Part shown: positions 28,318-57,998 of the stretch, piece after piece
Layout: every line of letters begins with the position of its first letter
Position numbering within the stretch: position 1 is the stretch's first letter
Assembly (NCBI RefSeq): GCF_019857185.1
Contig: NZ_JAHWXP010000002.1
Coordinates: 186,001-250,000, forward strand
DNA from: Alteriqipengyuania abyssalis
GTDB taxonomy: Bacteria > Pseudomonadota > Alphaproteobacteria > Sphingomonadales > Sphingomonadaceae
DNA length: 64,000 bases
Reading direction: 5' to 3'
The notes under the pieces: generated by a model
Databases searched by the model: none
Told to the model about the DNA's origin: nothing
What the model saw: only the letters and a program-made list of their open reading frames with translations
Program-made: the position numbers and the translations under genes

Positions 28318-29025
28318 ATGCATCGATTGATATTGCTATTGTGTGTGTTGTTTTTGTCGGGGTGCGGGTCTCCGGAGCCGTTGGTATCGACGGATCGCAT
28401 GACGGTGGTGGAGGCTGCGGATGGGTTGCCTATACCCAACCGCGATGATCTGGTGGCGGCGGATCGTCCTGCGCTGATTGGTCCGCTGGACACGATCCGG
28501 ATCGAGGTATTCAACTATCCCGAGTTCACGCGCGATGTTCAGGTGGATGCGAGCGGGCGTATTGCGCTGCCGTTTCTGGGCACGGTCGAGGCTGGCGGCA
28601 AGACCGCGGGCGAGCTGGCGATGGATGTGGAGCGGGCGCTGGATGCGCGTTACGTGCGCGATCCGGAGGTGACGGTGAACATCGTCAACTCGGTCAGCCA
28701 GGTGGTGACCGTGTCGGGCGAGGTCGAGACCCCGGGCCTGTATCCGGTGACCAACCAGACGACGCTGCTGCGTGCGATCGCGGCGGCGCGCGGGACGAGC
28801 GAGTTTGCGCGCAAGGACGAGGTGGTGATCCTGCGCACGGTCAACGGCCGGCGGATGGCCGGGCTCTACAGCCTTGAGGCGATCGAGCGCGGGCTGTACG
28901 ACGACCCCGCGATTTACGCCAACGACATCGTGGTGGTGGGCGACTCCCCCCAGCGACGTCTGTTCCGCGACTTCCTGACGGTGGCGCCGCTGCTGGCATC
29001 GCCGCTGGTCACGATTTTGCAGTAG
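28318..29025 (+). CDS. wza: Polysaccharide export lipoprotein, Wza/GumB-like (copy 1)
   Basis: 235 residues. Lipoprotein signal MHRLILLLCVLFLSGC with Cys 16. The Poly_export domain (about 48-130, DTIRIEVFNYPEFTRDVQVDASG) is followed by an SLBB domain (about 135-215, VSGEVETPGLYPV). It should form the outer-membrane/periplasmic exit channel for the polymer. It lacks the C-terminal helix domain of E. coli Wza (379 residues), like short GumB/GelD-type proteins. AGAGG precedes the ATG. The 5' end uses many TTG/TTA-like Leu and GTG Val codons, unlike the C-ending codons of neighbours. Identical twin at 54981. Confidence 0.92.
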   Translation: MHRLILLLCVLFLSGCGSPEPLVSTDRMTVVEAADGLPIPNRDDLVAADRPALIGPLDTIRIEVFNYPEFTRDVQVDASGRIALPFLGTVEAGGKTAGELAMDVERALDARYVRDPEVTVNIVNSVSQVVTVSGEVETPGLYPVTNQTTLLRAIAAARGTSEFARKDEVVILRTVNGRRMAGLYSLEAIERGLYDDPAIYANDIVVVGDSPQRRLFRDFLTVAPLLASPLVTILQ

Positions 29026-29033
29026 GTTTTTCC

Positions 29034-29055
29034 GGGCGCGCGCAAACGTGCGCCT
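29034..29055 (+). other. Hairpin in the wza-wzc intergenic gap (copy 1)
   Basis: A nine-base stem (29034-29042 with 29047-29055, two G-U pairs in RNA) closes a CAAA loop between the two genes. There is no T run directly after it, so it does not look like a full terminator. It could attenuate or protect the mRNA and set the Wza:Wzc ratio. Repeated unchanged at 55697-55718. Confidence 0.4.
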
Positions 29056-29076
29056 GCAACAAGGTTTTTGCCGAGC

Positions 29077-31323
29077 ATGAACATCCAGGCCTCCCGGTTC
29101 GGCAGCGAGTCCGGCCCTTCCGACCAGCCCCCGCAGGGTGGCGGCAATCCGCTGGGCGTGCAGGCGGGCCAGCCGGGAGAGGGCGATGGTCCCTCGATCG
29201 TGCAGCATTACCTGCGGATCGCGCAGCGCTGGCGCTGGCTGATCCTGGGTTCGATCGCGGCATGCGTTGCGCTGGGCCTGGTCGCGACCCTGCTGATGAC
29301 CCCGCAATACACCGCCACCGCGACGATCGAGATCTCGCGCGAAGGCAGCCAGGTGACCAACTTCGAAGGGGTCGAGCGCGAGGTCTCCATCTCCGACCAG
29401 GAGTTCTACCAGACCCAGTACGGCCTGCTGCGTGCGCGCACCCTGGCCGAACGGGTGGCCGGCCAGCTGGGCCTGATCGACAATCCCGAGTTCTTCGCAT
29501 CCTACGGCGTGGAAGGCGGAGACGACCCCGCCTTCGCGCTCGATAACGGGCGCTACACCGCGCAGGGCCGCCAGGACCGCCAGCGGATCGCGGGCGAGAT
29601 CCTGCTCGCCAATATCAGCGTTGCACCCGCGCGCCTCTCGCGGCTGGTCGACATCAGCTTTACCGGGCCCGATCCCGCGTTTGCCGCGCGGGTCTCGAAC
29701 AGCTGGGCGGAAAACTTCATCCAGTCCAACCTTGAGCGCAAGGTCCAGGCGACCTCCTACGGGCGCGAGCAGCTGCAGGCGCAGCTGGCCGACTACAAGG
29801 AACGCCTCGATGAGTCCCAGCGCCAGCTGGTGACCTACGCCTCGAGCGAGGAGATCATCAACCTGCCCGCACAGCCCGGGGCCGACGGGCGCACGCAGGA
29901 ACGCTCGATCGTGGCCGACGATCTGGCCGCGCTCAACGCCGCGCTGACCGAGGCGACCGCCGACCGGATCCAGGCCGAGGCGCGCGCACGCCAGGCGGGC
30001 GGCGGCTCCTCCTCCACCGAATCGCTGTCCAACCCGGCGATCAACAACCTGCGCGAGAAGCGCGCCGATCTGGCCGGCCAGTACGAGCTTTTGATGGTCC
30101 GGTTCGAGCCGGGCTATCCGCAGGCGCGCGCGCTGCAATCGCAGATCGACGAGCTCGACCGGGCGATCGCACGCGAGGAAGCGCGCGTCTCGGGCTCGCT
30201 GCAGGGCGATTACCGCGCCGCGCTGGAGCGCGAACAGACGCTGCAGGCGCGGGTCAATCGCCTCAAGGCGGACTATCTCGACCTGCGTCGCCGCTCGATC
30301 CAGTACAATATCTACCAGCAGGAGGTGGATACCAACCGCGCGCTGTATGACGGGCTGCTGCAGCGCTTCAAGGAGATCGGCGTTGCCGGCGGGGTCGGGG
30401 TCAACAATGTCTCGATCATCGATCCGGCCGATGTCCCGCAGGCCCCCTCCAGCCCCAACCTGCTGATGAACGTCCTGCTCTCGCTGATCGTGGGCGCGGG
30501 TATCGGCGCGGCGCTGGCCTTCCTGCTCGAACAGATCGACGAGGCGATCACCGATCCCACGGAGGTGCGCCGCAAGCTCGGCCTGCCGCTGTTGGGCACC
30601 ATCCCCACGGTTGCCGAGGGGCGCCCGGACGAGGCGCTGCTCGATCGCAAGTCGAGCCTGGTCGATGCCTATCTCGCCGCGTTCACCAATCTGGGCTTCA
30701 CCACCGAACACGGCGTGCCGCGTTCCTTCGCGGTCACCTCGACCCGGCCTGCGGAAGGCAAGTCGACCAGCTCGCTGGCGCTTGCCACCACGCTGGCGCG
30801 TGCGGGCAAGAGCGTGATCCTGGTCGATGGCGACATGCGCTCGCCCTCGGTCCACCAGCTGGGCGGGGTCGATCACGATCGCGGCCTGTCCAACTTCCTC
30901 GCCGGCGACGACGAGATCGAGACCATGACCTTCCCGATGACCCACCTGGGGTTCACCGCGATGTCGGCCGGTCCGATCCCGCCCAACGCCGCCGAACTGC
31001 TGACCGGCAACCGCCTCGATCTGCTGATGCGCCGCCTGCTGGAAATGTACGACCACGTCGTGATCGACTCGCCCCCGGTGATGGGCCTCGCCGATGCTCC
31101 GCTGATCGCGACCCATGTCGAAGGCGTGCTCTACGTGGTCGAATCCCACAATATCCGCGCAGGCCTCGTCAAGAACGCCATCGGACGCCTGAACTCCGCA
31201 AACATCCGCATCTTCGGCGCCCTCCTCACCAAGTTCGAAGCCAAGAAATCCGCCTACGGTTATTCCTACGGCTACGAATATGGATACTCCTACGGCAAAG
31301 AGGATGAGGGCAAGAGTGCCTGA
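29077..31323 (+). CDS. wzc: Polysaccharide co-polymerase with bacterial tyrosine kinase domain, Wzc-like (copy 1)
   Basis: 748 residues. N-terminal Wzz domain with a membrane helix (about 55-75), periplasmic coiled coil (about 230-430), second helix (about 465-485), then a cytoplasmic BY-kinase domain: Walker A in TRPAEGKSTSS (near 555), Walker A' VILVDGDMRSPS (near 580) and Walker B HVVIDSPPVMG (near 660). The C-terminal tail alternates Tyr with Gly/Ser/Glu (about 725-742), the expected autophosphorylation cluster. It controls chain length and export with Wza. Ends KEDEGKSA; the twin copy ends differently. No Wzb-type phosphatase was found in the window. Confidence 0.93.
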   Translation: MNIQASRFGSESGPSDQPPQGGGNPLGVQAGQPGEGDGPSIVQHYLRIAQRWRWLILGSIAACVALGLVATLLMTPQYTATATIEISREGSQVTNFEGVEREVSISDQEFYQTQYGLLRARTLAERVAGQLGLIDNPEFFASYGVEGGDDPAFALDNGRYTAQGRQDRQRIAGEILLANISVAPARLSRLVDISFTGPDPAFAARVSNSWAENFIQSNLERKVQATSYGREQLQAQLADYKERLDESQRQLVTYASSEEIINLPAQPGADGRTQERSIVADDLAALNAALTEATADRIQAEARARQAGGGSSSTESLSNPAINNLREKRADLAGQYELLMVRFEPGYPQARALQSQIDELDRAIAREEARVSGSLQGDYRAALEREQTLQARVNRLKADYLDLRRRSIQYNIYQQEVDTNRALYDGLLQRFKEIGVAGGVGVNNVSIIDPADVPQAPSSPNLLMNVLLSLIVGAGIGAALAFLLEQIDEAITDPTEVRRKLGLPLLGTIPTVAEGRPDEALLDRKSSLVDAYLAAFTNLGFTTEHGVPRSFAVTSTRPAEGKSTSSLALATTLARAGKSVILVDGDMRSPSVHQLGGVDHDRGLSNFLAGDDEIETMTFPMTHLGFTAMSAGPIPPNAAELLTGNRLDLLMRRLLEMYDHVVIDSPPVMGLADAPLIATHVEGVLYVVESHNIRAGLVKNAIGRLNSANIRIFGALLTKFEAKKSAYGYSYGYEYGYSYGKEDEGKSA

Positions 31324-32593
31324 CGCCAAACCCGCTCGCACCGCGAAAGCGAGTGCCTCGGCCGCGGGCGGAGCTTCCGCGTCCGGTTTTTCGCTGCCGC
31401 TGGGCAAGCGGACCCGTTACGTCATTGCTGCCCTCGCAGTGCTGAGCGGCGTGGCCAGCGGGGTCTATTCGCTGGGTTCGGCGATGGCGCGACGGTCGAT
31501 CGACCTCGCCTATGCGGTCGATCCGTCCAACCCAGTGATTGCGGGCCGCTTTGCCCTCTCCGAGGTGTCGAACCCGATCCAGGGTAATCGTCCGACCAAT
31601 TTCCGCGAAGTCGCTGCGCGCGCGCTGGAGCAAGACCCGACTGCGGTCGACGCTGCGGTCGCGATCGGCCTTGCGAGCCAGCTCAACAACCAACCGGCGC
31701 AAACCGACGAAGCATTCGCCTATGCGTTGCGGATGTCCCGCCGCGAGACCCGCGCGCATATCTGGGCGATCGAGCAGGCGGCCATGCGGGGCGACATCCG
31801 CGGCGCGCTGGAGCACTACGATCTCGCGCTTCGGACCGAAGAGAACGCCACCGACGTGCTCTTCCCGACGCTGGCCAGTGCGGCAAGCGAGCCACTGGTG
31901 CGCAAGGAACTCATCCGCCTGTTTCGCAGCAACCCGCCATGGGGTCAGAACTTCATCAATGTTGCGGCGATGAGCGCCAGCAACCCCAAGGATATCGCGC
32001 TGCTGGTCGAAGAACTGCGGCGTGCGGGCACCAAGATTGCCTATCCCGCCGATCAGCTGCTTGCGACCAACCTGTACAACCGGGGCTTCCGCCAGGACGC
32101 CTGGGATTACTACACCAGCCGGATCAACCGCAAGCCAGGCACGATCCGGCCCTTCAGCCAGACGCGGGCCTATTCGACATCCTTCGACTGGAAGCTGGAA
32201 GAACCGACGGGCATTCTGCCCACGATCATCCGTTCGGGGGACGATTACGTCCTCGACGTGAGCAAGGTCCCATCATCATCGGGTGCGGTCGCCAGTCAGG
32301 CATTGCGGCTCGCCCCGGGCCGCTATCGCCTTGCGGGCAGCTTCGAGGCACCGCAGGGAAGCGATCGTTCCGCCTATCGCTGGGAAATCGCCTGCACGGA
32401 TGGTCAGCCCTTCGCGATGGCGGACCTGGCCGAAGGACAGGGCACGCAGACCTATCGCAAGGCCTTCACCGTGCCCGGCGACTGCCCACAGCAGACGCTA
32501 ACGCTCACGGCACGCCAGTCGAGCGGCTTCCAGGCACAGAACACGTCCTTCACGAGCCCCACGATCACGCGGGTCGGCGCGAACGCTAATTGA
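31316..32593 (+). CDS. Membrane-anchored TPR-like protein of the polysaccharide locus
   Basis: About 425 residues from the GTG at 31316, which has GAGGG at five-base spacing and overlaps the wzc stop by eight bases. One N-terminal helix (RYVIAALAVLSGVASGVYSLG) is followed by helical repeats resembling TPRs (about 70-260) and a beta-rich C-terminal domain (about 290-425, ending in PQQTLTLTARQSSGFQ). It probably faces the periplasm and may scaffold the export machinery; this is inferred from position. Its 3' end overlaps the convergent wbuC-like gene by eight bases. ATG codons at 31280 and 31304 are alternatives. Confidence 0.78.
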   Translation: MPDAKPARTAKASASAAGGASASGFSLPLGKRTRYVIAALAVLSGVASGVYSLGSAMARRSIDLAYAVDPSNPVIAGRFALSEVSNPIQGNRPTNFREVAARALEQDPTAVDAAVAIGLASQLNNQPAQTDEAFAYALRMSRRETRAHIWAIEQAAMRGDIRGALEHYDLALRTEENATDVLFPTLASAASEPLVRKELIRLFRSNPPWGQNFINVAAMSASNPKDIALLVEELRRAGTKIAYPADQLLATNLYNRGFRQDAWDYYTSRINRKPGTIRPFSQTRAYSTSFDWKLEEPTGILPTIIRSGDDYVLDVSKVPSSSGAVASQALRLAPGRYRLAGSFEAPQGSDRSAYRWEIACTDGQPFAMADLAEGQGTQTYRKAFTVPGDCPQQTLTLTARQSSGFQAQNTSFTSPTITRVGANAN

Positions 32594-33074
32594 CGCCGGA
32601 GAGCCCGGCGCGCAGCCGCTCGATCAGCGCAACACCTTCCGCCGTGCCTTCCTCGGGCGACCAGTCGGCAGGCTCCTTCGCCAGTTCGGGCCGGAACGGG
32701 CCCTGCTTCACTTCGAGCAGGATCGCGCCATCATCCAGCGCGACCACCGTGTGCCACGCCTCGGGCGGCAGCGTGATGCCGAAAGGCGCATCGCCATGCT
32801 CGCCGAAAATCTGGCTGGACATGACCTCTCCCGCATCGTCGAACACGAAGCAGGCAAAGGTTCCGCGCAGCGCACTCAGATGCTCCACTTTCGGATCGAG
32901 GCTATGGCGGTGCGGGCGGATATAGCTGTCGGGCGCAACCGCGTTGACCAGCATCTGCACCGGGTCGGAGTGGTCAGCGTGGATGCAATAGTGCATCCGC
33001 CGCCGGTCGGACCGGAGTGCCGCTTCGCTCAACTCGTCGAGGAAGGCAGGGGTGAGATCCGCGAGGTTAGGCAT
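32586..33074 (-). CDS. wbuC: WbuC-family cupin metalloprotein
   Basis: 162 residues. A small cupin with HCIHADHSDPVQ, the metal-binding RPHRHSLDPKVEH segment and ITLPPEAWHTVVAL, matching the WbuC family. WbuC genes sit beside FucNAc synthesis and transfer genes in E. coli and Pseudomonas O-antigen clusters, but their function is unknown. The ATG at 33074 overlaps the wbuB-like stop by eight bases. Last gene of the 20-gene minus-strand array. Confidence 0.85.
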   Translation of the reverse strand: MPNLADLTPAFLDELSEAALRSDRRRMHYCIHADHSDPVQMLVNAVAPDSYIRPHRHSLDPKVEHLSALRGTFACFVFDDAGEVMSSQIFGEHGDAPFGITLPPEAWHTVVALDDGAILLEVKQGPFRPELAKEPADWSPEEGTAEGVALIERLRAGLSGVN

Positions 33075-34383
33075 GCTGTCGCTCCGCAGTCGTCTTGTCA
33101 CCAAGTTCCACGATCCACTCTTCCAGACTGGCGATCAGCGCGGCGCGGTTGAAATGGGCCTGCGCGTAGGCACGCCCGTTCCTGCCAAGCTCGGCGCGCT
33201 CTTCACGCGACATGCGCATCATTGTGCGGACATTGTCTGCCAGTGTGCGGTAGTCGCCAGCGGGTGCAGTCATCCCGGCTTCGGCCTCACGGATGACGCG
33301 CCCGCCTTCGCCGTTGAACATGCCGAGCAGCGGGCGGCCGGAGGCAAGGTAGGACTGGACCTTGCCCGGAATCGTCATCGACCAGATCGGCTCGTCACGC
33401 AGCGTCACCAGCAGCGCGTCGGCGGCGCTGAAGAAGGATGGCATGCGTTCGAGCGGGTGACGGCCCGCGAAGATCACCTTGCCCTCCAGTCCGCGCCTGG
33501 CGACCTCGGCGCGCGCATCGTCGCCCGCACGCCCCTCGCCCACGATGATCCAGCGTAAGGCAGGCTCGTCACGCAGTACGTCTGCCGCTTCAATGATCGC
33601 GGGAATATCCTGCGCCTGGCCCAGATTGCCCGCGAACATCACCTTGAAGTCGTCCGCATAGGGAGAGAGCTCGGGCGGAGGGTCGAGCCCGTCGACCGCG
33701 TTCTGAAACACGGGCTCGGGCCAGCCGGGGAAATAACGGATCGTGTCCGTGCCGCCCGCATAGCGCTCGACATTGTTGTAGAACGCGCGCGACTGGACGA
33801 GGATACGCGCGCAGCGCTTGTAGATGAAGCTGACCAGCTTGCCGACCAGCCCCAGCAGCGCGGGCGATTTGACCACCCCGATGGCGGAGAGCGTATCGGG
33901 CCACAGGTCGAGGACCCACATCAGCACCGGCGCGCGCTTGCGCCAGCCGATCCACAGCGCGGGCAGCGCTGAAGTGATCGGCGAGGTCTGGAAGACGAAG
34001 ATCGCGTCGAAGCGCTGGCCGCGCAGCTTGCCTGGGCCGAAGATCGTGCCTGAAAGCGCAAAGCTGAGATAGTTGAGCATCAGCTTCAGGCTGCTGTTCC
34101 CGCGCGGGATCACCGGCACGCGGTGGACCGGGGCCCCTTCGAAGCTCGAATATTTCCCGGGGTTCTCGCGGAAGTCGGCGAAGATCTTACCGTCCGGGTA
34201 GTTCGGCAGGCCGGTCAGCACGGTAACCTCGTGGCCGCGCGCGATCAGTTCGCTGGAGAGGTCGTTGACGCGAAAGCCCTCGGGCCAGAAATACTGGCTG
34301 AGGATCAGGATTTTAAGCTTGCGGGGATCACCTGCAGAGACGTCAGCCGATCCTTCGGCCGCCGGATGGCGGATATCATGCAT
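33067..34383 (-). CDS. wbuB: Glycosyltransferase family 4, WbuB-like (probable L-FucNAc transferase)
   Basis: 438 residues with the GT-B fold of family 4. The N-terminus is ILILSQYFWPEGFRVNDLS, the core has VLDLWPDTLSAIG and MFAGNLGQAQDIP, and the C-terminal EX7E-like region lies around SYLASGRPLLGMFNGEGG. These features match WbuB, the transferase paired with fnlABC-wbuC in L-FucNAc-containing O-antigens. Cytoplasmic, acting at the membrane on an undecaprenyl-linked acceptor. The linkage and acceptor are not predictable. Located directly after the methyltransferase and before wbuC. Confidence 0.85.
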   Translation of the reverse strand: MHDIRHPAAEGSADVSAGDPRKLKILILSQYFWPEGFRVNDLSSELIARGHEVTVLTGLPNYPDGKIFADFRENPGKYSSFEGAPVHRVPVIPRGNSSLKLMLNYLSFALSGTIFGPGKLRGQRFDAIFVFQTSPITSALPALWIGWRKRAPVLMWVLDLWPDTLSAIGVVKSPALLGLVGKLVSFIYKRCARILVQSRAFYNNVERYAGGTDTIRYFPGWPEPVFQNAVDGLDPPPELSPYADDFKVMFAGNLGQAQDIPAIIEAADVLRDEPALRWIIVGEGRAGDDARAEVARRGLEGKVIFAGRHPLERMPSFFSAADALLVTLRDEPIWSMTIPGKVQSYLASGRPLLGMFNGEGGRVIREAEAGMTAPAGDYRTLADNVRTMMRMSREERAELGRNGRAYAQAHFNRAALIASLEEWIVELGDKTTAERQHA

Positions 34384-34401
34384 CGCTACCCCCTGCGCGT
34401 G

Positions 34402-35136
34402 TCAGGCGACGGCGGTCGGCTCTAGCAGGTAGCTGTCGCGGCGGATCGTCTTGATCAGCAGACCACGCAGCGGCGGCGAGATCGGCTCTGGCTTGCCTTC
34501 GGCATGGCCCACGACCTTGTACCCCGCTTCGGCAAACAGCTCGCGCCATTGCTCGTTGGAGCGGAAACGCACGCCGACGCCGAAAGTGTTGGCGCGCAGT
34601 GCGGGCACAACCTTGCCGATCGCGCTGCCCACTGCCGACAGCAGGCTGCTTGAGGTGATTTCGAAGATCCACCGCCCGCTCAGGTGCGGGACGAAGCTCT
34701 GGTAGATATATTCGTTCACGAACACGCGCCGGGCCTTACCGTGCCACGCCTTGAGCGCCTGGAGCTGCAAGCGCCGCGTCTCCGCCTCGTTCTTGCCGAC
34801 GAGGTGGTGGAGGATCAGGTTGAAACAGACCACGTCCTCGTCGCCGGTCGGCACGGGGGCGAGCGCATCGCCCAGTTCCGCGTCGACCCCGATCTCGTGG
34901 CATTTCGCGACCGAGCGAGTGTCCATGTCGAGCACGCGGGTGCGATAGCCGTGGACGTCGGTCAAACTGCGCGCGAAGAAGCCGCAGCCGCCGCCAATAT
35001 CGACGATCGCCTTGCCGCCCGAATCCGCATCGTTGAGGTTGCCGAAGTCGCGCACCTGATCCTCGACGAACTCGTCGTGGTAGAATGCCTCGATCTGGGC
35101 ATCCGCCAGCTTTTTCTGCGTCACCATCTCGTTCAT
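34402..35136 (-). CDS. Class I SAM-dependent methyltransferase
   Basis: 244 residues. The SAM-binding motif I is VDIGGGCGFFARS (about 46-58), followed by an acidic strand end RVLDMDTRSVAK and a motif with NLILHHLVG. The substrate may be a sugar or glycan because of its place in the array between fnlC and wbuB, but the sequence gives no direct clue. Length is usual. Confidence 0.8.
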   Translation of the reverse strand: MNEMVTQKKLADAQIEAFYHDEFVEDQVRDFGNLNDADSGGKAIVDIGGGCGFFARSLTDVHGYRTRVLDMDTRSVAKCHEIGVDAELGDALAPVPTGDEDVVCFNLILHHLVGKNEAETRRLQLQALKAWHGKARRVFVNEYIYQSFVPHLSGRWIFEITSSSLLSAVGSAIGKVVPALRANTFGVGVRFRSNEQWRELFAEAGYKVVGHAEGKPEPISPPLRGLLIKTIRRDSYLLEPTAVA

Positions 35137-35249
35137 CGAATTTCCTCGTTCCGCAGCACGATCATCGTACGGCTACGCGGCGTTTCGTGCGCCGATATAT
35201 GCCCCGCCCCTCTGCGAGTCCATGCAGGCGGGCCGGATCGACCCGCGCG

Positions 35250-36383
35250 TCAGTATTCCTTCCAGACCGTGCGGCGAACGTAATCGGTATAGGAATGGAT
35301 GATGCGGACCACCTTGGCCGAGACATTGGGCATCGAATAATCGGCGACCAGCCGCAGATCGCGATCCTCGCCGCGCGCCTGCGACGCGATGATCGCAAGG
35401 CCCTGTTCGACCCGCTCTGCGCTGAGTCCGGTCATCATCACCGTACCCTCTTCCATCCCCTCGGGCCGCTCGTGCGCCTCGCGGATATTGAGCGCGGGGA
35501 AGTTGAGGATCGAGGATTCCTCGGTGATCGTGCCGCTGTCCGACAGCACGGCGCGCGCCGATTTCTGCAGCCGCACATAGTCGTGGAAGCCGAGCGGCTT
35601 GAGCAGGCGTACATTGGGGTGGAATTCGACCCCCGCCCGGTCGATCCGGTTCTGGGTGCGCGGATGGGTCGAGACGATCACGGGCTGGTCGTAAGTTTCA
35701 GCCGTGCGGTTGAGGATCTCGACCAGCCGCAGGAAGTTGGCATCGCTCTCGATATTCTCTTCGCGGTGCGCGCTGACCACGAAGTAGCCGTGCTCTTTCA
35801 GGTCGAGGCGGTCGAGCACGTCGGACGCGTCGATCCGGTCCATATAGGCGTGCAGCACCTCGTACATCGGGCTGCCGGTCTTGATCACGCGATCGGGCGG
35901 CAGGCCTTCGGCGAGCAGGTATTCGCGCGCAATATCGCTGTAGGTCAGGTTGATATCGGCGGTGTGGTCCACGATCCGGCGGTTGATTTCCTCCGGCACG
36001 CGCTGGTCGAAGCAGCGATTGCCCGCCTCCATGTGGAACACGGGGATCTTGGCGCGCTTGGCAGGGAGGACGGACAGGCAGCTGTTCGTGTCGCCCAGCA
36101 CCAGCAGCGCTTCGGGCTGGACCTCCTTGAGCAGCTTTTCCATCCCGATCATGATGTTGCCGATCGTCGCGACCGGCGCTCCGGCGACGGCTGCGTGGAG
36201 GAAATGGTCGGGCTTGCGGATGCCCAGATCGTCGAAGAAGACCTGGCTCAGCTCATAATCGTGGTTCTGTCCGGTGTGGACCAGAATATGCTCGCACGCC
36301 TCGTCCAGCGCGATCAGCACGCGCGACAGGCGGATGATCTCGGGCCGCGTGCCGACAACCGTCATGACCTTCATCTTGCCCAT
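35250..36383 (-). CDS. fnlC: UDP-N-acetyl-L-quinovosamine/UDP-HexNAc 2-epimerase, FnlC/WbjD type
   Basis: 377 residues of the non-hydrolysing UDP-GlcNAc 2-epimerase family: [40 protein letters not shown] and [11 protein letters not shown]. In the FnlABC pathway it makes the final C2 epimerisation to UDP-N-acetyl-L-fucosamine. Assignment rests on position right after fnlA-fnlB. It is distinct from the WecB-like epimerase at 60453. The start lies four bases from the fnlB stop. Confidence 0.9.
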
Positions 36384-36387
36384 AATC

Positions 36388-38534: not shown

Positions 38535-38554
38535 GTCTCGCGTGTCCCCTCGGC

Positions 38555-39346: not shown

Positions 39347-39352
39347 CTGGTC

Positions 39353-41118: not shown

Positions 41119-41219
41119 GTTCGGGAAACCTCAAGGGATGTTCGGCGGGCTGATAGCGGACATGCCGCGGCTTACCAACCCCCGAAAGTCCGCGCGTGCG
41201 GCGGTGGTGCACCACCGCA

Positions 41220-44931: not shown

Positions 44932-44949
44932 GATGGTGTTCCGGTATAT

Positions 44950-44968: not shown

Positions 44969-45045
44969 GCTGTATTCGGTCGGGCAAGGGTTTGGACGGG
45001 CTCGGGTTAGCAGAGCCTGCAGTCAGGACCAATCCTCCCATCGCG

Positions 45046-49300: not shown

Positions 49301-49331
49301 GATTTGCGCCTGTCACCTGGGTCCTCCGCCG

Positions 49332-50459
49332 CTAGGCCGGGACGACCGCCGCGCGCAGCGCCTCGATCACCTTCGCCTGGGTGCCTTCGTCCATGTAGGG
49401 GTGCATCGGCAGGCTGAAGACCTCATTGGCCATCCGCTCCGACGTGGCGAGCCCTTCGGGGTCGCCGGGGAAGGAGGAATAGGCGGTCTGCAGGTGCAGC
49501 GGGCGCGGGTAGTAGACGACCGAGGGAACGCCATGTTCCTTCAGCGTCGCCATCACCGCATCGCGGCCCGAACCATCGCGGGTGCGCACTGTGTACTGCG
49601 CCCACACCGAACGGCAGCCATTGGGCACGTGCGGCGTGATCAGCAGGTCGCCCAGCGCATCGGTATAGCGGTTGGCGACCACCTGGCGGGCTTCGATCTC
49701 GTCTTCGTAGATCGCCAGCTTTTCCAGCAGGATCGCCGCCTGCAGCGTGTCGAGCCGCGAGTTGAGGCCGATCCGCTCGTTATCGTACTTGTGCGTGCCC
49801 TTGCCGTGCACGCGGTAGGAATCGAGCAGCGCGCGCAGTTCGTCGTCGTCGGTGAACACCGCACCACCATCGCCGTAGCAGCCGAGCGGCTTGGCAGGGA
49901 AGAAGCTGGTGGTCGCGATGGTGCCGATCGAACCGGTGCGGCGGCCGTTGTAATCCGCGCCGAAGCCCTGCGCCGAATCGCTCACGACCCACATGCCGTT
50001 TTCCTGCGCGACCGCTTCGATCGCGTCGTAGTCGGCGGGCAGGCCGAACAGGTCGACCGCGATCACCCCGGCGGGCTTCATCCCCTCCGCCTTGGCGAAG
50101 GCGATCGCGCGCTTCAGGCTTTCGACGTCGAGGTTGTACGTCCGCTCGTCGACATCGACGAACACCGGGGTTGCCCCGGTCATCGGCACGATCTCTGCGG
50201 TGGAAGCAAAGGTGAAGGTGGGGCAGAACACCGCGTCGCCAGGCCCCGCGCCCAGCGCCATCAGCGCCAGCTGCAGCGCGTCGGTGCCGTTGGCGCAGCC
50301 CAGCGCGTGCTTCGCGCCGCAGAATTCGGCGAGCTTGCCTTCGAACTCGGCCACTTCGGGGCCCATGATATATTTGCCGTGGTCGAGCACGGCGGCGATG
50401 CGCGCGTCGAGAGCAGGCCGGATACGCTGCTGCTGCGCGGCGAGATCGATGAATTGCAT
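49332..50459 (-). CDS. wbpE: UDP-3-keto-GlcNAcA aminotransferase, WbpE-like (DegT/DnrJ/EryC1 family)
   Basis: 375 residues of PLP-dependent sugar aminotransferase. Pyridine-N-binding Asp161 lies in VVSDSAQGFGA and the PLP lysine is Lys190 in SFFPAKPLGCYGDGGA. In the Wbp pathway it adds the C3 amino group using glutamate. Neighbours wbpD, wbpB and wbpA complete the pathway to UDP-GlcNAc3NAcA. The start is four bases from the wbpD stop. Confidence 0.92.
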   Translation of the reverse strand: MQFIDLAAQQQRIRPALDARIAAVLDHGKYIMGPEVAEFEGKLAEFCGAKHALGCANGTDALQLALMALGAGPGDAVFCPTFTFASTAEIVPMTGATPVFVDVDERTYNLDVESLKRAIAFAKAEGMKPAGVIAVDLFGLPADYDAIEAVAQENGMWVVSDSAQGFGADYNGRRTGSIGTIATTSFFPAKPLGCYGDGGAVFTDDDELRALLDSYRVHGKGTHKYDNERIGLNSRLDTLQAAILLEKLAIYEDEIEARQVVANRYTDALGDLLITPHVPNGCRSVWAQYTVRTRDGSGRDAVMATLKEHGVPSVVYYPRPLHLQTAYSSFPGDPEGLATSERMANEVFSLPMHPYMDEGTQAKVIEALRAAVVPA

Positions 50460-50463
50460 GGGG

Positions 50464-51051
50464 TTAGGCCCTTTCTTCCGTCAGCCGGAGTGTGTCGCTG
50501 CTCGCGTCATATTCGTATTTCTCGCCCGTGCGCGGGCATACCAGCGTCTCGTCGAGACGCTCGCCCGTGCGCGAGACCCAGCCGATCCGCTTTGCCGGAA
50601 CGCCCGCGACCAACGCAAAATCGGCTACATCCTTGGTTACCACGGCACCGGCCGCGATCATCGCATAATCGCCGATCCGGTGGCCACACACGACGGTCGC
50701 GTTGGCCCCGATGGTCGCGCCACGGCCCACGGGAGTGGGTGCGAATTCGGACTTGCGCTCGATCTCGGCGCGCGGGGTCAGCACGTTTGTGAAGACGCAG
50801 GACGGGCCGCAGAACACCCCGTCGGCCAGCTCCACACCCTTGTAGAGCGAGACGTTGTTCTGGATCTTGCAGTTATTGCCGATCGTCACGTCGGGCCCGG
50901 CGACCACGTTCTGTCCGAGCACGCAGTTCTCGCCGATCGTGGTGTTGGGCAGGACATGGCTGAAATGCCAGATCTTGGTACCAGCGCCGATCGTGCTGGG
51001 CTCGTCGACATAGGCGCTTTCATGCGCAAAATAGGGCTTCTTGTCGGTCAC
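50464..51051 (-). CDS. wbpD: UDP-2-acetamido-3-amino-glucuronate N-acetyltransferase, WbpD-like
   Basis: 195 residues of left-handed beta-helix (hexapeptide) acyltransferase, with repeating I-G-x-N-C/V motifs (TIGENCVLGQNVVAGPDVTIG) and the conserved CVFTNVLTPRA. It acetylates the 3-amino group made by WbpE. The GTG start at 51051 overlaps the wbpB stop (GTGA). A C-terminal CPRTGEKYEYD segment follows the helix. Length matches P. aeruginosa WbpD closely. Confidence 0.92.
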   Translation of the reverse strand: MTDKKPYFAHESAYVDEPSTIGAGTKIWHFSHVLPNTTIGENCVLGQNVVAGPDVTIGNNCKIQNNVSLYKGVELADGVFCGPSCVFTNVLTPRAEIERKSEFAPTPVGRGATIGANATVVCGHRIGDYAMIAAGAVVTKDVADFALVAGVPAKRIGWVSRTGERLDETLVCPRTGEKYEYDASSDTLRLTEERA

Positions 51052-52031
51052 TTGTTTTCTCCCAGCGAGGCCTGTAGCGCGGCTTCCGCACGGTCGAGGA
51101 CTTCGAGAACGCGCAGTCCCTCGGCCACATCGGTAAGCGGCTGCGTGCCCTGTTCGATGCAATCGATGAAGTGCTGGCATTCGGAACGCAGCGGCTCGCC
51201 CTGATCGACCGCAATATATTCCGGATCGGCCTTGATCGGTGCGGGGGCCGGGCCGGAGCGGTCGATCCCGTGGCGATAGATCGCAAGCTTGCGATCCCAC
51301 TCGGGCGCGCTGTCTTCGAACACCAGCATGCCCTCATCGCCCACGGCGACCAGCCTCGCCTCCTTGAAAGGATGGCTCCACGAGGTCTGCACATGGCCGC
51401 GCACACCTCCGGGGAACTGCAGGTGCGCGGTGCACCAGTCGGCGATGCCCGGCGTGATCCAGGCCGCACCTTCGGCCGTCACGGCATCGGGCGCTTCACC
51501 CACCATCGCGAGCAGCATCGAGAAATCGTGTGGCGCGAAGGACCACATGACGTTTTCCTCGGTGCGGAATTTGCCCAGGCTGAGGCGGTTGGAATAGACA
51601 TAGCGCAGCTGGCCGATCGCGCCGCCCGCCACCAGCTCCTTCGCCTGGCGGAAGATCGGGTGGTATTGCAGCAGGTGGCCGACCATCAGGATCCTGCCCA
51701 CCTCTTCGGCCTTGGCCGCCATCCGCTCGCCGTCGGCGGGCAGCAGGGCAAGCGGCTTTTCGACATAGACATGCTTGCCCGCTTCGAGCGCGGCAATCGC
51801 CACATCGGCATGGGTTTCCGCCGGTGTCGCCAGCGACACGCCGTGAATGCTGTCATCCGCGAGGATATCCTCGAAGCTGCGCGCCTCGGTCCCGTGCTCC
51901 TGCGCGATCCGCTCCGCCGTCGGCGCGTGATAGTCGGCCACCGCCGCCAGCGCGCCCAGCTGCGCGTAATTGCGCGCGAGGTTCTTGCCCCAGTGGCCGA
52001 CGCCGATCTGGGCGATGCGCGTGTTGCTCAT
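51048..52031 (-). CDS. wbpB: UDP-GlcNAcA 3-dehydrogenase, WbpB-like (Gfo/Idh/MocA family)
   Basis: 327 residues. N-terminal NAD-binding [16 protein letters not shown], the EKPLAL element ([16 protein letters not shown]) and the family's C-terminal sheet domain. It oxidises C3 of UDP-GlcNAcA, the product of WbpA, to give WbpE its keto substrate. ATGA overlap with the wbpA stop. Confidence 0.92.
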
Positions 52032-53335
52032 GCCGGGAACACCTTTTCGTGATTGCGATCGAACTTGCCGCGCGTGTCGAGGATGAGGGCGGCGTGTTCG
52101 AGGATCAGGTCGTAGTCGAAGGCCTTGTGGTCGGTGGTCAGGACCACCGCATCGAACCCGGCGAGCGATTGCGCCGTCAGATCGACCGAAGACAGGTCGA
52201 AATCGTGCTCGCGCGTTTCGGGGAAGACCGGGATGTGCGGGTCGCTATAATGGATATCCGCACCCAGATAGCGCAGCTTCTCCATGATCTCGACCGAGGG
52301 GGATTCGCGCATGTCATCGACATTGGGCTTGTAGGCGATACCGAGCACCAGGATCTTCGAGCCCGCGATCGACTTGTGCTTGCCGTTGAGCGCCAGCGCC
52401 AGCTTGTTGACCACGAAATCGGGCATCGAGCTATTCACCTCGCCCGCGAGCTCGATGAAGCGGGTGTGCAGGCCGAATTCACGCGCCTTCCACGTGAGGT
52501 AGAACGGGTCGATCGGGATGCAGTGGCCACCAAGGCCCGGGCCGGGATAATAGGGCACGAAGCCGAACGGCTTGGTCGCCGCGGCGCGGATCACCTCATG
52601 GATGTCGATATCCATCCGGTCGGCGACGATCTTCATCTCGTTGACGAGACCGATATTGACCGCGCGGTGGATGTTTTCGAGCAGCTTGGTCAGCTCGGCA
52701 ACCTTGGTCGAGCTGACCGGCACCACCGTGTCGATCACCCCGCCATACAGCGCCTGGCCGACTGCGTGGCAGGTTTCGGTCACCCCGCCGACGATCTTGG
52801 GAATGGTCGCGGTCTCGAACTTCTCGTTGCCCGGATCCTCGCGTTCGGGCGAATAGACCAGGAACACTTCCTCGCCGACCTTGAGCCCGGATTTCTCGAT
52901 CCGCGGCTTGAGTTCCTCGTCGGTGGTGCCCGGCCAGGTGGTGCTTTCGAGCGAGACGACCTGACCTGCGCGCATGTGCGGCACGATCGCCTCGGTCGTG
53001 TTGAGCACATAGGTCAGGTCGGGTTCGCGATATTTGTTGAGCGGAGTGGGCACGCACAAAATGATCGCATCGACCTCGTCGATCCGAGCCATGTCGGTGG
53101 TCGCCTCGAACCCGGCGTCGTTTGCCGCGGCAATATCCTTGCCCGAGATATGCTCGATATAGCTTTCCGCCCTGGCCAGCTTCTCGACCTTGCGGGCATC
53201 GACATCGAACCCGATCGTCTTGTAGCCCTTTTCGCAATAACGCAGCACCAGCGGCAGGCCGACATAGCCGAGGCCGACCACTCCGATGGTGGCGGTGCCG
53301 TTGGTCAGGCGATCGATCAGTTGCTGGCTATGCAA
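52028..53335 (-). CDS. wbpA: UDP-GlcNAc 6-dehydrogenase, WbpA-like
   Basis: 435 residues. NAD-binding [12 protein letters not shown], catalytic-Cys motif [13 protein letters not shown], and [11 protein letters not shown] of the UDP-sugar 6-dehydrogenase family. It oxidises UDP-GlcNAc to UDP-GlcNAcA, the first step of wbpABED. The start is a TTG at 53335 with GAGGAA at eight-base spacing; no ATG of similar position exists. It differs from the WecC-like dehydrogenase at 58022, which should use UDP-ManNAc. Confidence 0.92.
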
Positions 53336-53417
53336 TGTCTGTGTTCCTCAATCTCGGTGCGCTTGCGAAGGGCATCGACCGCCCGCCTGTGCGCTTCGTA
53401 TGACAGGTCGATGATAG

Positions 53418-54728
53418 CTATTTCGAGCCGAACCCGCTGATCATCACGCGCAGCGTCTTGGCGAGGATCAGCAGGTCGAGCCAGAGGGAGAAATTCTTGA
53501 TGTAGAAGAAATCGTGATTGAGCTTGGTGCTCACGCTGTCGACATCGGCGACGTGGCCCTGAACGGTCTGTGCCCAGCCGCTGATGCCGGGGCGCACCAC
53601 GTGGCGATAGCGGTAATAGGGAATCTCCTGCTCGTACCACCGCGACAGCTTCTCGGCCTCGGGACGCGGGCCGATCCAGCTCATCTGTCCCAGCAGAATG
53701 TTCACGATCTGCGGCAGTTCGTCGACCCGTGTGCGGCGGAAGATACGTCCGATCCGCGTGACCCGCGCGTCCGCGTCCTTGGTCACCAGATCGTCCAGCC
53801 CGGCAGGTGTGGGAGCGGTGCAATGCTGCATGGTGCGGAACTTGTAGACGGTGAAAGGCCGCGCGCGGTAGCCCATCCGGCTCTGGCGGAAGATCATCGG
53901 TCCCGGGCTGTCGAGCTTGATCGCGATGCCCGCCAGCAGCAGAAACGGCAGCAGCGGAATCAGCACGACCAGCGCGATCAGCCGGTCGAGCACATGCTTG
54001 ATCGTCTGGTACACCGGCGATGGCGTCAGTGATCCGTAGGCAGTCTCGGAAATATGCTCCAGCGTCACTTCGCCGGTCACCGATTCGATCAGGTGCCGCA
54101 GGTTGTAGACCGGAATTCCCGCCAGTGCGGCGTCGGCCAGCATCTCGCTCTGGCGGTCGCTCAGCGGGAGCCGGAAGTCCACCGCGATCGCATCGGCATG
54201 GTCGAAGCCGGCATGGTCCGAATGTTTCAGCCATTCGATCGAGGGGATCTGCGGGAGCGCTGCCCCGTCGGGCTGCGCAAGCACGCTGATGCGCAGCACC
54301 AGCTCATCCTTATAGCGGAAATGCTCAAGGTACGAGAGCAGCACCACCGCCACGAAGCTGCCGATCAGCACGAAACGGCTGTAATCGAGCTTGAACATCA
54401 GCAGTCCGATCGCGATCAGCCCGTAGGCCAGCGCAAAGGACGGAACGATTGCGGAAGCGCGCTCCACACCTGGATAGCGGTTGACGTTCTCGATCAGCAG
54501 GACACCGATCAGCGAAGAGGCGAAGGCCGCCAGGCAGGCGTAGCCGACCTGCAACAGGCTCGCCTCGGGCATCCCAAAAATGACGATGCGCAGCAGGATC
54601 GCCACCAGCACTGCAAGCAAGCTGATGGTCACCGAACGTTTGATTTTTCTCCGCGTCGTGTGCCGCCTTCGGCCAACCGCGCCCGCCGCCCGCGACGAGC
54701 GTGCCGCGTCAACAGCGTTCTGTCCCAT
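53418..54728 (-). CDS. Polyprenyl-phosphate sugar transferase (priming glycosyltransferase)
   Basis: 436 residues. Several N-terminal helices, a further helix near 265-290 and the C-terminal bacterial sugar transferase domain: FRQSRMGYRARPFTVYKFRTM, ARVTRIGRIFRRTRVDELPQ, MSWIGPRPEAE and RPGISGWAQ. It should transfer the first sugar phosphate to undecaprenyl phosphate at the inner membrane and so start each repeat. A GTG at 54752 would add eight residues; I favour ATG at 54728. It is the first gene of the minus-strand array, diverging from wza copy 2. Confidence 0.92.
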   Translation of the reverse strand: MGQNAVDAARSSRAAGAVGRRRHTTRRKIKRSVTISLLAVLVAILLRIVIFGMPEASLLQVGYACLAAFASSLIGVLLIENVNRYPGVERASAIVPSFALAYGLIAIGLLMFKLDYSRFVLIGSFVAVVLLSYLEHFRYKDELVLRISVLAQPDGAALPQIPSIEWLKHSDHAGFDHADAIAVDFRLPLSDRQSEMLADAALAGIPVYNLRHLIESVTGEVTLEHISETAYGSLTPSPVYQTIKHVLDRLIALVVLIPLLPFLLLAGIAIKLDSPGPMIFRQSRMGYRARPFTVYKFRTMQHCTAPTPAGLDDLVTKDADARVTRIGRIFRRTRVDELPQIVNILLGQMSWIGPRPEAEKLSRWYEQEIPYYRYRHVVRPGISGWAQTVQGHVADVDSVSTKLNHDFFYIKNFSLWLDLLILAKTLRVMISGFGSK

Positions 54729-54980
54729 TTTCAATACCCGCACAATCAGCACAGCGCCCGATGCGGCGCTCCTCTAGCCGGGCCGCCGAAGCTTTCCAAC
54801 CGTGTATTTAAGCCGTTAGGAAAGGCGTGGCATCCGCGCATCTCTTTTGTCCGCCCGCGTCCCGCAATCGCGCAACTCCGGCGGGTCTGCATGCGGTAAG
54901 TCTTGGCGAGGGCTTTATTCTTTTGGCTTCTTGGCCTAACCAAGCGCCCGCATGGGGGAGAAGCCCGCAAGGGATTGGCG
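54729..54980. promoter_or_regulatory. Divergent intergenic region between the priming transferase and wza copy 2
   Basis: 252 bases between divergent genes, so it should hold promoters for the 20-gene array (minus) and wza-wzc copy 2 (plus). It has AT-rich patches (TGTATTTAA at 54803-54811; TTTATTCTTTT near 54913) in an otherwise GC-rich area and AAGGGA as a ribosome-binding site for wza. No convincing -35/-10 pair or known operator was identified. This upstream sequence is not shared with wza copy 1. Confidence 0.4.
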
Positions 54981-55688
54981 ATGCATCGATTGATATTGCT
55001 ATTGTGTGTGTTGTTTTTGTCGGGGTGCGGGTCTCCGGAGCCGTTGGTATCGACGGATCGCATGACGGTGGTGGAGGCTGCGGATGGGTTGCCTATACCC
55101 AACCGCGATGATCTGGTGGCGGCGGATCGTCCTGCGCTGATTGGTCCGCTGGACACGATCCGGATCGAGGTATTCAACTATCCCGAGTTCACGCGCGATG
55201 TTCAGGTGGATGCGAGCGGGCGTATTGCGCTGCCGTTTCTGGGCACGGTCGAGGCTGGCGGCAAGACCGCGGGCGAGCTGGCGATGGATGTGGAGCGGGC
55301 GCTGGATGCGCGTTACGTGCGCGATCCGGAGGTGACGGTGAACATCGTCAACTCGGTCAGCCAGGTGGTGACCGTGTCGGGCGAGGTCGAGACCCCGGGC
55401 CTGTATCCGGTGACCAACCAGACGACGCTGCTGCGTGCGATCGCGGCGGCGCGCGGGACGAGCGAGTTTGCGCGCAAGGACGAGGTGGTGATCCTGCGCA
55501 CGGTCAACGGCCGGCGGATGGCCGGGCTCTACAGCCTTGAGGCGATCGAGCGCGGGCTGTACGACGACCCCGCGATTTACGCCAACGACATCGTGGTGGT
55601 GGGCGACTCCCCCCAGCGACGTCTGTTCCGCGACTTCCTGACGGTGGCGCCGCTGCTGGCATCGCCGCTGGTCACGATTTTGCAGTAG
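54981..55688 (+). CDS. wza: Polysaccharide export lipoprotein, Wza/GumB-like (copy 2)
   Basis: 235 residues, identical in protein and apparently in DNA to the copy at 28318. The lipobox Cys16, Poly_export and SLBB domains are the same. Its own upstream region differs: AAGGGA at about six bases from the ATG and a separate 252-base intergenic promoter region shared with the priming transferase. It therefore may be regulated differently from copy 1, which sits behind the ligase gene. Confidence 0.92.
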   Translation: MHRLILLLCVLFLSGCGSPEPLVSTDRMTVVEAADGLPIPNRDDLVAADRPALIGPLDTIRIEVFNYPEFTRDVQVDASGRIALPFLGTVEAGGKTAGELAMDVERALDARYVRDPEVTVNIVNSVSQVVTVSGEVETPGLYPVTNQTTLLRAIAAARGTSEFARKDEVVILRTVNGRRMAGLYSLEAIERGLYDDPAIYANDIVVVGDSPQRRLFRDFLTVAPLLASPLVTILQ

Positions 55689-55696
55689 GTTTTTCC

Positions 55697-55718
55697 GGGC
55701 GCGCGCAAACGTGCGCCT
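55697..55718 (+). other. Hairpin in the wza-wzc intergenic gap (copy 2)
   Basis: Exact counterpart of the hairpin at 29034-29055, nine-base stem with a CAAA loop and no T run. Confidence 0.4.
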
Positions 55719-55739
55719 GCAACAAGGTTTTTGCCGAGC

Positions 55740-57998
55740 ATGAACATCCAGGCCTCCCGGTTCGGCAGCGAGTCCGGCCCTTCCGACCAGCCCCCGCAGG
55801 GTGGCGGCAATCCGCTGGGCGTGCAGGCGGGCCAGCCGGGAGAGGGCGATGGTCCCTCGATCGTGCAGCATTACCTGCGGATCGCGCAGCGCTGGCGCTG
55901 GCTGATCCTGGGTTCGATCGCGGCATGCGTTGCGCTGGGCCTGGTCGCGACCCTGCTGATGACCCCGCAATACACCGCCACCGCGACGATCGAGATCTCG
56001 CGCGAAGGCAGCCAGGTGACCAACTTCGAAGGGGTCGAGCGCGAGGTCTCCATCTCCGACCAGGAGTTCTACCAGACCCAGTACGGCCTGCTGCGTGCGC
56101 GCACCCTGGCCGAACGGGTGGCCGGCCAGCTGGGCCTGATCGACAATCCCGAGTTCTTCGCATCCTACGGCGTGGAAGGCGGAGACGACCCCGCCTTCGC
56201 GCTCGATAACGGGCGCTACACCGCGCAGGGCCGCCAGGACCGCCAGCGGATCGCGGGCGAGATCCTGCTCGCCAATATCAGCGTTGCACCCGCGCGCCTC
56301 TCGCGGCTGGTCGACATCAGCTTTACCGGGCCCGATCCCGCGTTTGCCGCGCGGGTCTCGAACAGCTGGGCGGAAAACTTCATCCAGTCCAACCTTGAGC
56401 GCAAGGTCCAGGCGACCTCCTACGGGCGCGAGCAGCTGCAGGCGCAGCTGGCCGACTACAAGGAACGCCTCGATGAGTCCCAGCGCCAGCTGGTGACCTA
56501 CGCCTCGAGCGAGGAGATCATCAACCTGCCCGCACAGCCCGGGGCCGACGGGCGCACGCAGGAACGCTCGATCGTGGCCGACGATCTGGCCGCGCTCAAC
56601 GCCGCGCTGACCGAGGCGACCGCCGACCGGATCCAGGCCGAGGCGCGCGCACGCCAGGCGGGCGGCGGCTCCTCCTCCACCGAATCGCTGTCCAACCCGG
56701 CGATCAACAACCTGCGCGAGAAGCGCGCCGATCTGGCCGGCCAGTACGAGCTTTTGATGGTCCGGTTCGAGCCGGGCTATCCGCAGGCGCGCGCGCTGCA
56801 ATCGCAGATCGACGAGCTCGACCGGGCGATCGCACGCGAGGAAGCGCGCGTCTCGGGCTCGCTGCAGGGCGATTACCGCGCCGCGCTGGAGCGCGAACAG
56901 ACGCTGCAGGCGCGGGTCAATCGCCTCAAGGCGGACTATCTCGACCTGCGTCGCCGCTCGATCCAGTACAATATCTACCAGCAGGAGGTGGATACCAACC
57001 GCGCGCTGTATGACGGGCTGCTGCAGCGCTTCAAGGAGATCGGCGTTGCCGGCGGGGTCGGGGTCAACAATGTCTCGATCATCGATCCGGCCGATGTCCC
57101 GCAGGCCCCCTCCAGCCCCAACCTGCTGATGAACGTCCTGCTCTCGCTGATCGTGGGCGCGGGTATCGGCGCGGCGCTGGCCTTCCTGCTCGAACAGATC
57201 GACGAGGCGATCACCGATCCCACGGAGGTGCGCCGCAAGCTCGGCCTGCCGCTGTTGGGCACCATCCCCACGGTTGCCGAGGGGCGCCCGGACGAGGCGC
57301 TGCTCGATCGCAAGTCGAGCCTGGTCGATGCCTATCTCGCCGCGTTCACCAATCTGGGCTTCACCACCGAACACGGCGTGCCGCGTTCCTTCGCGGTCAC
57401 CTCGACCCGGCCTGCGGAAGGCAAGTCGACCAGCTCGCTGGCGCTTGCCACCACGCTGGCGCGTGCGGGCAAGAGCGTGATCCTGGTCGATGGCGACATG
57501 CGCTCGCCCTCGGTCCACCAGCTGGGCGGGGTCGATCACGATCGCGGCCTGTCCAACTTCCTCGCCGGCGACGACGAGATCGAGACCATGACCTTCCCGA
57601 TGACCCACCTGGGGTTCACCGCGATGTCGGCCGGTCCGATCCCGCCCAACGCCGCCGAACTGCTGACCGGCAACCGCCTCGATCTGCTGATGCGCCGCCT
57701 GCTGGAAATGTACGACCACGTCGTGATCGACTCGCCCCCGGTGATGGGCCTCGCCGATGCTCCGCTGATCGCGACCCATGTCGAAGGCGTGCTCTACGTG
57801 GTCGAATCCCACAATATCCGCGCAGGCCTCGTCAAGAACGCCATCGGACGCCTGAACTCCGCAAACATCCGCATCTTCGGCGCCCTCCTCACCAAGTTCG
57901 AAGCCAAGAAATCCGCCTACGGTTATTCCTACGGCTACGAATATGGATACTCCTACGGCAAAGAGGATGAGGGCAAAAGCGGCAAGGCCAAGGCCTGA
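55740..57998 (+). CDS. wzc: Polysaccharide co-polymerase with tyrosine kinase domain, Wzc-like (copy 2)
   Basis: 752 residues. The first ~745 are identical to copy 1, including the Wzz domain, coiled coil, Walker A, A' and B motifs and the Tyr-rich tail. Only the last residues differ: KEDEGKSGKAKA here, KEDEGKSA in copy 1. The stop lies 23 bases from the end of the convergent wecC gene. Two identical kinases could form mixed oligomers or serve separate export units; the sequence does not tell. Confidence 0.93.
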   Translation: MNIQASRFGSESGPSDQPPQGGGNPLGVQAGQPGEGDGPSIVQHYLRIAQRWRWLILGSIAACVALGLVATLLMTPQYTATATIEISREGSQVTNFEGVEREVSISDQEFYQTQYGLLRARTLAERVAGQLGLIDNPEFFASYGVEGGDDPAFALDNGRYTAQGRQDRQRIAGEILLANISVAPARLSRLVDISFTGPDPAFAARVSNSWAENFIQSNLERKVQATSYGREQLQAQLADYKERLDESQRQLVTYASSEEIINLPAQPGADGRTQERSIVADDLAALNAALTEATADRIQAEARARQAGGGSSSTESLSNPAINNLREKRADLAGQYELLMVRFEPGYPQARALQSQIDELDRAIAREEARVSGSLQGDYRAALEREQTLQARVNRLKADYLDLRRRSIQYNIYQQEVDTNRALYDGLLQRFKEIGVAGGVGVNNVSIIDPADVPQAPSSPNLLMNVLLSLIVGAGIGAALAFLLEQIDEAITDPTEVRRKLGLPLLGTIPTVAEGRPDEALLDRKSSLVDAYLAAFTNLGFTTEHGVPRSFAVTSTRPAEGKSTSSLALATTLARAGKSVILVDGDMRSPSVHQLGGVDHDRGLSNFLAGDDEIETMTFPMTHLGFTAMSAGPIPPNAAELLTGNRLDLLMRRLLEMYDHVVIDSPPVMGLADAPLIATHVEGVLYVVESHNIRAGLVKNAIGRLNSANIRIFGALLTKFEAKKSAYGYSYGYEYGYSYGKEDEGKSGKAKA

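Follow-up and report, generated by a model that had tools for sequence, protein, structure and literature searches.

A stretch of 64,000 nucleotides of the genome of Alteriqipengyuania abyssalis (contig NZ_JAHWXP010000002.1, positions 186,001 to 250,000; hereafter the window) carries twice, as a perfect direct repeat, the adjacent genes wza and wzc, which specify a lipoprotein and a co-polymerase/tyrosine kinase of polysaccharide export. We propose, with a probability of roughly 0.9, that this is an old duplication whose two copies are held identical by recurring gene conversion between them. The first-pass annotation had described a 2,996-bp repeat without mismatches, noncoding wza-wzc gap included, whose left boundary falls on the wza start codon in both copies and whose upstream sequences differ. 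Base-by-base alignment bears this out: 2996/2996 bases are identical at an offset of 26,663, at silent sites as well as in the gap. The maximal exact match coincides with the two intervals given in Table 1 and cannot be extended by a single base on either side; beyond it, identity at the same offset drops to about 19-38% per 100 bp. No other direct repeat was detected in the window (seed 20, length 60). In the entire assembly, the repeat occurs in full twice, on a single 953-kb contig, and another contig has just two further matches of about 40 bp each.

In both copies, the repeat starts on the wza start codon, at the first base of ATGCATCGATTG..., and stops within the 3' end of wzc; the last base of the stop codon follows 10 bases later in copy 1 and 22 in copy 2. 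The Wzc C-termini differ, with copy 1 reading ...KEDEGKSA (ending in SA) and copy 2 ...KEDEGKSGKAKA (ending in SGKAKA). In copy 2, a TTG at 54903 is in frame as well; we take ATG 54981 as the start of its wza because a purine-rich AAGGGA, read by eye, stands just 5' of it. No residual homology was found just beyond the repeat edges in G000 (the window's own genome), in its relatives G003 and G005 or in Sphingomonas JC676 (16 tests, shuffle p all >0.09). A mobile element or composite transposon was considered and rejected: no inverted pairs ≥60 bp were found (seed 20; shorter ones were not searched), the repeat contains no transposase, and the domains on wza and wzc are those of export and kinase proteins only.

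How old are the two loci? The first-pass annotation had suggested comparing them in close relatives. Among 40 genomes searched with the repeat DNA, the window's own and 39 relatives, two full copies are present in G003, on a single contig, and in G005, besides G000, and by alignment both copies of each occupy syntenic positions matching those of G000. The repeat of G003 and G005 diverges by 2-5% from that of the window genome. In a fourth genome, G009, the contigs (L041, L042, L039, L040) end at each of the four repeat boundaries, the pattern expected from a collapsed repeat; the remnants comprise 33 bp on the left, identical in both copies, and 93 bp on the right, with 84/93 identical. All four genomes have in common a wzy gene left of copy 1, a priming transferase gene left of copy 2 and a WecC-like gene right of copy 2. 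Synteny dates the duplication to before at least four species of the genus diverged.

Within each genome, the copies are nevertheless more alike than their counterparts between genomes. Over the same 2,996 sites, they differ from each other at 0 (G000), 5 (G003) or 10 positions (G005), whereas 58-164 differences separate the genomes (BLAST gives 1/2987 for the G003 copies since it trims the ends). Quartet comparison of the three genome pairs yields, in total, 350 sites that unite copies of one genome and not a single site that unites copies of one position. In a tree of 13 rows, which includes Sphingomonas zeae (L101), copies from the same genome are joined at 99-100 support or are identical, and approximately unbiased tests, with the two identical window-genome rows left free, reject a copy-1 clade and a copy-2 clade (p 2e-40 and 8e-44). 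Paralogs are thus closer within a genome than orthologs are between genomes; the loci are syntenic across species (G000, G003 and G005 by alignment, G009 by contig ends), which places the duplication before the homogenisation; and homogenisation extends beyond the protein to synonymous and noncoding sites. This is the pattern of concerted evolution.

The few differences within genomes are not scattered. All five of G003 lie at repeat positions 2982-2994, and the ten of G005 comprise 105, 108 and eight from 2724 to 2994, so that positions 109-2723 (2,615 bp) contain no within-genome difference in G000, G003 or G005, against 36-126 between genomes. Within-genome differences lie nearer the ends than random draws of variable sites (permutation p 1e-5 and 3e-5). 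The two G009 copies, the repeat interior of which is not assembled, differ at 9 sites in the readable last 93 bp. Five copy-specific letters in this part (2982-2994) are common to G003 and G009, for which grouping by genome is supported at no site. At least in these two genomes, the last ~15 bp keep an old distinction between the copies, which the interior of G003 does not. Divergence between G000 and G003 follows the same partition, being 1.4% in the middle of the repeat (109-2723) and 5.5-6.5% at its ends (1-108, 2724-2996). As a separate observation, the first 108 bp of wza, its signal-peptide region, differ by 18-19% between G000 and G005 and at two sites between the G005 copies, and at none within G000 or G003.

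We envision that the wza-wzc pair was duplicated before at least four species of the genus separated, and that one copy has since been repaired from the other by homologous, non-reciprocal and recurrent gene conversion, presumably of the RecA type. Conversion would act across the shared coding block and fail near its ends, where alone differences would persist. A process of this kind explains why silent and noncoding sites are identical, why the copies group by genome and why homogenisation fails towards the ends. Conceivably, the two copies are driven by separate promoters, and separate control would fit their differing 5' regions. What might favour identity? Wza and Wzc are presumed to act as oligomers in one complex, and selection may therefore favour identical subunits, which would avoid poorly functioning mixed Wza-Wzc complexes.

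A second such arrangement is found in Sphingomonas JC676 (L120, L121), which has two wza-wzc pairs 24.3 kb apart, start to start. These are identical across 2,896 bp, from the Wza lipobox to 10 bp past the wzc stop, and their signal peptides differ. One copy adjoins wzy and g31280, the gene that also follows copy 1 of the window; the other adjoins a divergent sugar dehydrogenase gene. We count this pair as a separate event because the tree places it among other Sphingomonas sequences and apart from the window's clade.

Several points weigh against conversion as the explanation. No conversion tract has been seen directly, the case resting on a comparison of assembled sequences, and both copies are assembled in only three genomes. 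The copy-specific letters common to G003 and G009 have no counterpart involving G000 or G005 (none of the five remaining genome pairs has such a site). Moreover, synonymous divergence (dS) between G000 and G003 is as low as 0.066 for wza and 0.062 for wzc, compared with 0.08-0.29 in 16 other genes, and for G000 against G005 the values are 0.23 and 0.11, compared with 0.11-0.72 in the same 16 genes (the G003 value for g53418, the priming transferase gene, was excluded from these rates); the low mid-repeat divergence and low wza and wzc dS between G000 and G003 may also stem from exchange between species. Finally, the JC676 DNA before the identical block aligns no better than shuffles do (p 0.21 for 60 bp, 0.81 for 150 bp), and the reading of its signal peptides as diverged relatives consequently depends on equal length and position alone.

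How do other explanations fare? A single, very recent duplication in the window strain, too young for mutations to have arisen, would yield the 0 mismatches over 2,996 bp. We give it next to no credence and consider it excluded in practice because both loci predate the species split: the same two positions are occupied in G003, G005 and, in collapsed form, G009, and the G003 and G005 repeats have already diverged from that of the window. That the assembler placed a single copy twice is suggested by the perfect identity in a draft of 8 contigs. It is very unlikely, as each copy's own flanks are syntenic with the matching flanks of G003 and G005, in which the copies show private differences, and as G009 breaks at the four repeat ends in the manner expected of two near-identical copies. 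The first-pass annotation had set recent duplication, active conversion and artefact side by side; of these, conversion is the one favoured by syntenic loci that pair by genome. Identical copies within each genome would likewise result if copy loss and fresh copying had occurred independently in each lineage in place of conversion in situ. However, the start-codon left edge in three genomes and the conserved copy-specific flanks and tails would require the same breakpoints each time, and the letters common to G003 and G009 at 2982-2994 show continuity of both loci there, which leaves little chance for serial replacement.

Alternatively, the repeats might serve as anchors for swapping or excising the biosynthesis cassette between them, with identity as a by-product. 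Their direct orientation, their spacing of 23.7 kb and the variable cassette gene content among G000, G003 and G005 agree with this possibility. Local replacement could also have left the pattern of divergence around the repeats: wzy, g31280 and g53418 are the most diverged genes between G000 and G005 (dS 0.60, 0.72 and 0.51; identity 84%, 79% and 85%), far more so than the farther-out DnaJ, FabI and WecC-like genes (96-97% identity). Yet none of the three genomes lacks the genes adjoining the repeats, gain and loss being confined to the cassette interior, and no deletion product is found among the loci compared in layout (G000, G001, G002, G003, G005, G008, JC676 and Sphingomonas ID1715; of the genus, G004, G006 and G007 stand outside this set). 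We consider cassette exchange through the repeats unlikely, and less likely than gene conversion.

Under the gene conversion reading, which copy came first? The neighbours of wza-wzc were counted in 80 named loci retained by a scan of genome contigs. A g31280-type gene lies 3' of wzc in 78 of these and a wzy match 5' of the pair in 67; L121, the second copy of JC676, is the only one with neither. In the stretches examined, G008, G001 and G002, which belong to the same genus, have a single wza-wzc flanked by wzy and g31280, and the DNA search found no second full repeat copy in them. Because wzy and g31280 both adjoin copy 1 and neither adjoins copy 2, copy 1, with the usual order wzy-wza-wzc-g31280, is taken as ancestral, and copy 2 as an orphan pair that heads the cassette and faces away from it. 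In Sphingomonas ID1715 (L205/L206), which has a single Wzc match in its genome (expectation value E 1e-50), a colinear cassette runs directly into wzy-wza-wzc-g31280 on one strand; compared with this arrangement, the window cassette is inverted relative to the wzy-wza-wzc operon.

How often do pairs of this kind occur in assembled genomes? The window Wzc matches 193 of 298 family genomes (E 1e-120; three candidates scored per genome), of which 21 have at least two matches. Near-equal scoring pairs occur in three of these (G000, G003, G005) and are lacking in 12, 10 of which have their second match below the roughly 469 bits down to which matches were listed; the remaining 6 of the 21 lie outside the matches listed. 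The JC676 Wzc matches 92 of 295 Sphingomonas genomes (E 1e-260), with JC676 alone having two matches. A second family sample of 396 genomes (two candidates scored per genome), which overlaps the first with many repeated coordinates, yields 56 genomes with a match (E 1e-215); pairs are confined to G770 and G918, whose coordinates are those of G003 and G005. Near-equal pairs are thus seen in at least 3/298 family genomes, with G009 collapsed, and in 1/295 Sphingomonas genomes. Collapsed pairs escape such searches: G009 yields no Wzc match at E 1e-120, yet its contig ends show the genes, so draft assemblies can lose these pairs entirely. Tentatively, and against the odds as we judge them, conversion-held, cassette-linked wza-wzc pairs might be an arrangement by which Sphingomonadaceae have repeatedly placed a single export machine under two control points, with one orphan pair facing away from the cassette and one pair linked to wzy as usual; it would have arisen at least twice, in the window's clade and in JC676, and persist because selection favours subunits that are interchangeable within mixed Wza-Wzc complexes.

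The process itself is known, and the wza-wzc pair seems to be a new example of it. As described in PMC5485169, Salmonella tufA and tufB are two near-identical copies on one chromosome, homogenised by conversion once per 10^5-10^6 generations, with identity stopping at coding boundaries. For this reason, the start-codon edge, which the first-pass annotation had called unusual, is not strange; on our analysis, it is where the shared sequence ends and no sign of engineering. Unlike tuf, for which a rate was measured, wza-wzc is a two-gene block with a spacer, acts in polysaccharide export rather than translation and is known by comparison only. A survey (PMC6053082) describes 26 long-lasting concertedly evolving prokaryotic genes, most over ~500 million years, in which paralogs are likewise closer within species than orthologs between species and genes of one complex or pathway evolve in concert (amoCAB, psbA and psbD); the time depth of wza-wzc is shown within one genus only. 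The pair seems not to be among the 26, as the word polysaccharide is absent from the main text of that survey. Meningococcal capsule regions D and D', as portrayed in PMC6619384, also repeat genes inside a capsule locus, on both sides of the synthesis region. There, the repeated genes are sugar genes (galE, rfb), copies are highly divergent in 23/39 isolates and the locus inverts between galE1 and galE2, whereas wza-wzc forms identical direct repeats of export genes. Sphingomonas sanxanigenens NX02, of the same bacterial family, has more than one wza/wzc set according to PMC5399355; its operons differ, one being split like gelC/gelE, and only one is needed for sanxan.

Among the papers listed by our search of openly licensed literature on gene conversion and concerted evolution, no title names wza or wzc, and one of the papers, PMC5592201, is unrelated. 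Should the recurring arrangement with two control points suggested above be real, it would, within reach of the literature searched, be the first case of concerted evolution shown for a polysaccharide export module. A polysaccharide export and kinase pair joins the short list of concertedly evolving bacterial genes, at a type of locus better known for diverging rapidly, and the clade provides natural replicates in which to ask why two identical pairs persist.

Table 1. Features of the wza-wzc locus in the window (aa, amino acids).
Feature	Position	Strand	Basis or remark
wzy-like polymerase/ligase, just 5' of copy 1	26767..28212	+	PF04932 Wzy_C 1.2e-13
Region between wzy and copy-1 wza	28213..28317		unrelated to sequence 5' of copy 2 by comparison
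Repeat copy 1 (wza and most of wzc)	28318..31313	+	2996/2996 identical to copy 2
wza copy 1, 235-aa short polysaccharide-export lipoprotein	28318..29025	+	Pfam PF02563 4.6e-21 (Poly_export), PF10531 5.9e-12 (SLBB)
wzc copy 1, co-polymerase/tyrosine autokinase, at most 751 aa, tail ...KEDEGKSA	29068..31323	+	Pfam Wzz, GNVR, CbiA/ParA
g31280, conserved gene after copy-1 wzc, absent after copy 2	31280..32593	+	no Pfam or NCBIfam hit
Biosynthesis cassette between copies, opposite strand	32586..54752	-	domain/family searches
Divergent intergenic region, cassette operon versus copy-2 wza; candidate separate control region	54753..54980		function suggested by layout
Repeat copy 2 (wza and most of wzc)	54981..57976	+	only other full copy in genome
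wza copy 2	54981..55688	+	identical to copy 1; same Pfam basis
wzc copy 2, at most 755 aa, tail ...KEDEGKSGKAKA	55731..57998	+	repeat identity, Pfam
UDP-ManNAc dehydrogenase-like gene (WecC type), right flank of copy 2	58022..59356	-	syntenic in relatives

The two proteins have the features of a Wza/Wzc polysaccharide export pair, a Poly_export/SLBB protein being encoded next to a Wzz-GNVR-kinase protein. Wza starts with the signal sequence MHRLILLLCVLFLSGC and is not of the long E. coli type, which has a C-terminal outer-membrane part: its relatives in the PDB are the export proteins 9n9a (186 residues) and 2j58 (359 residues), and the match covers residues 99-236 of the latter. Wzc combines Wzz, GNVR and P-loop domains with a tyrosine-rich tail, scores above the cut-off of TIGR01007 (tyrosine autokinase domain), the sole NCBIfam model passed by the pair, and has 7nhr as a PDB relative (E 1.4e-39). 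The listed start of copy-1 wzc is a TTG; the ATG at 29077 is more likely. A putative antisense gene opposite wza-wzc (28336-31407 and 54999-57812, minus strand; a frame of at most 1,023 aa, or 1,001 aa in a second analysis) was rejected, its frame being shorter in every relative compared. The longest open stretch counts 991 codons in the window, 796 in G003, 609 in G005, 568 in JC676, 319 in ID1715, 237 in G008 and 218 in L112, and because it shrinks in this way, the frame is probably a product of chance in GC-rich coding DNA. A simple gene caller favoured it over wza-wzc, wrongly.

Promoter scans gave no useful signal overall, with one weak promoter-like match between wzy and copy-1 wza and no sigma-70-like match in the divergent region before copy 2. 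The cassette contains genes for glycosyltransferases, a flippase-like protein (46569-48098), a sugar dehydrogenase, an aminotransferase and the priming transferase (53418-54752), along with genes for a WbcJ-model reductase, a WecB-type epimerase, WbuX, HisH and a HisF2-type protein (the HisF2 model being one of acetamidino-modification); its FnlA-like protein scores below the cut-off of the model. On the minus strand of 35250-41118, the FnlA-like, WbcJ-type, WecB, WbuX, HisF2 and HisH genes suggest acetamidino-modified and N-acetyl-fucosamine type sugars in the polymer. As to the variable content, cassette genes 34402-35136 and 48008-49300 are without a match in G005, and 41220-42350, an acyltransferase gene in the window, is reduced to a 27-aa remnant in G003, where its place is taken by what is presumably a methyltransferase-like gene (L034:11584-12267). 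At L034:8559-9519 of the G003 cassette, the counterpart of window 43549-44931 is split by an insertion of ~950 bp with a 278-aa frame, which we take to be transposase-like.

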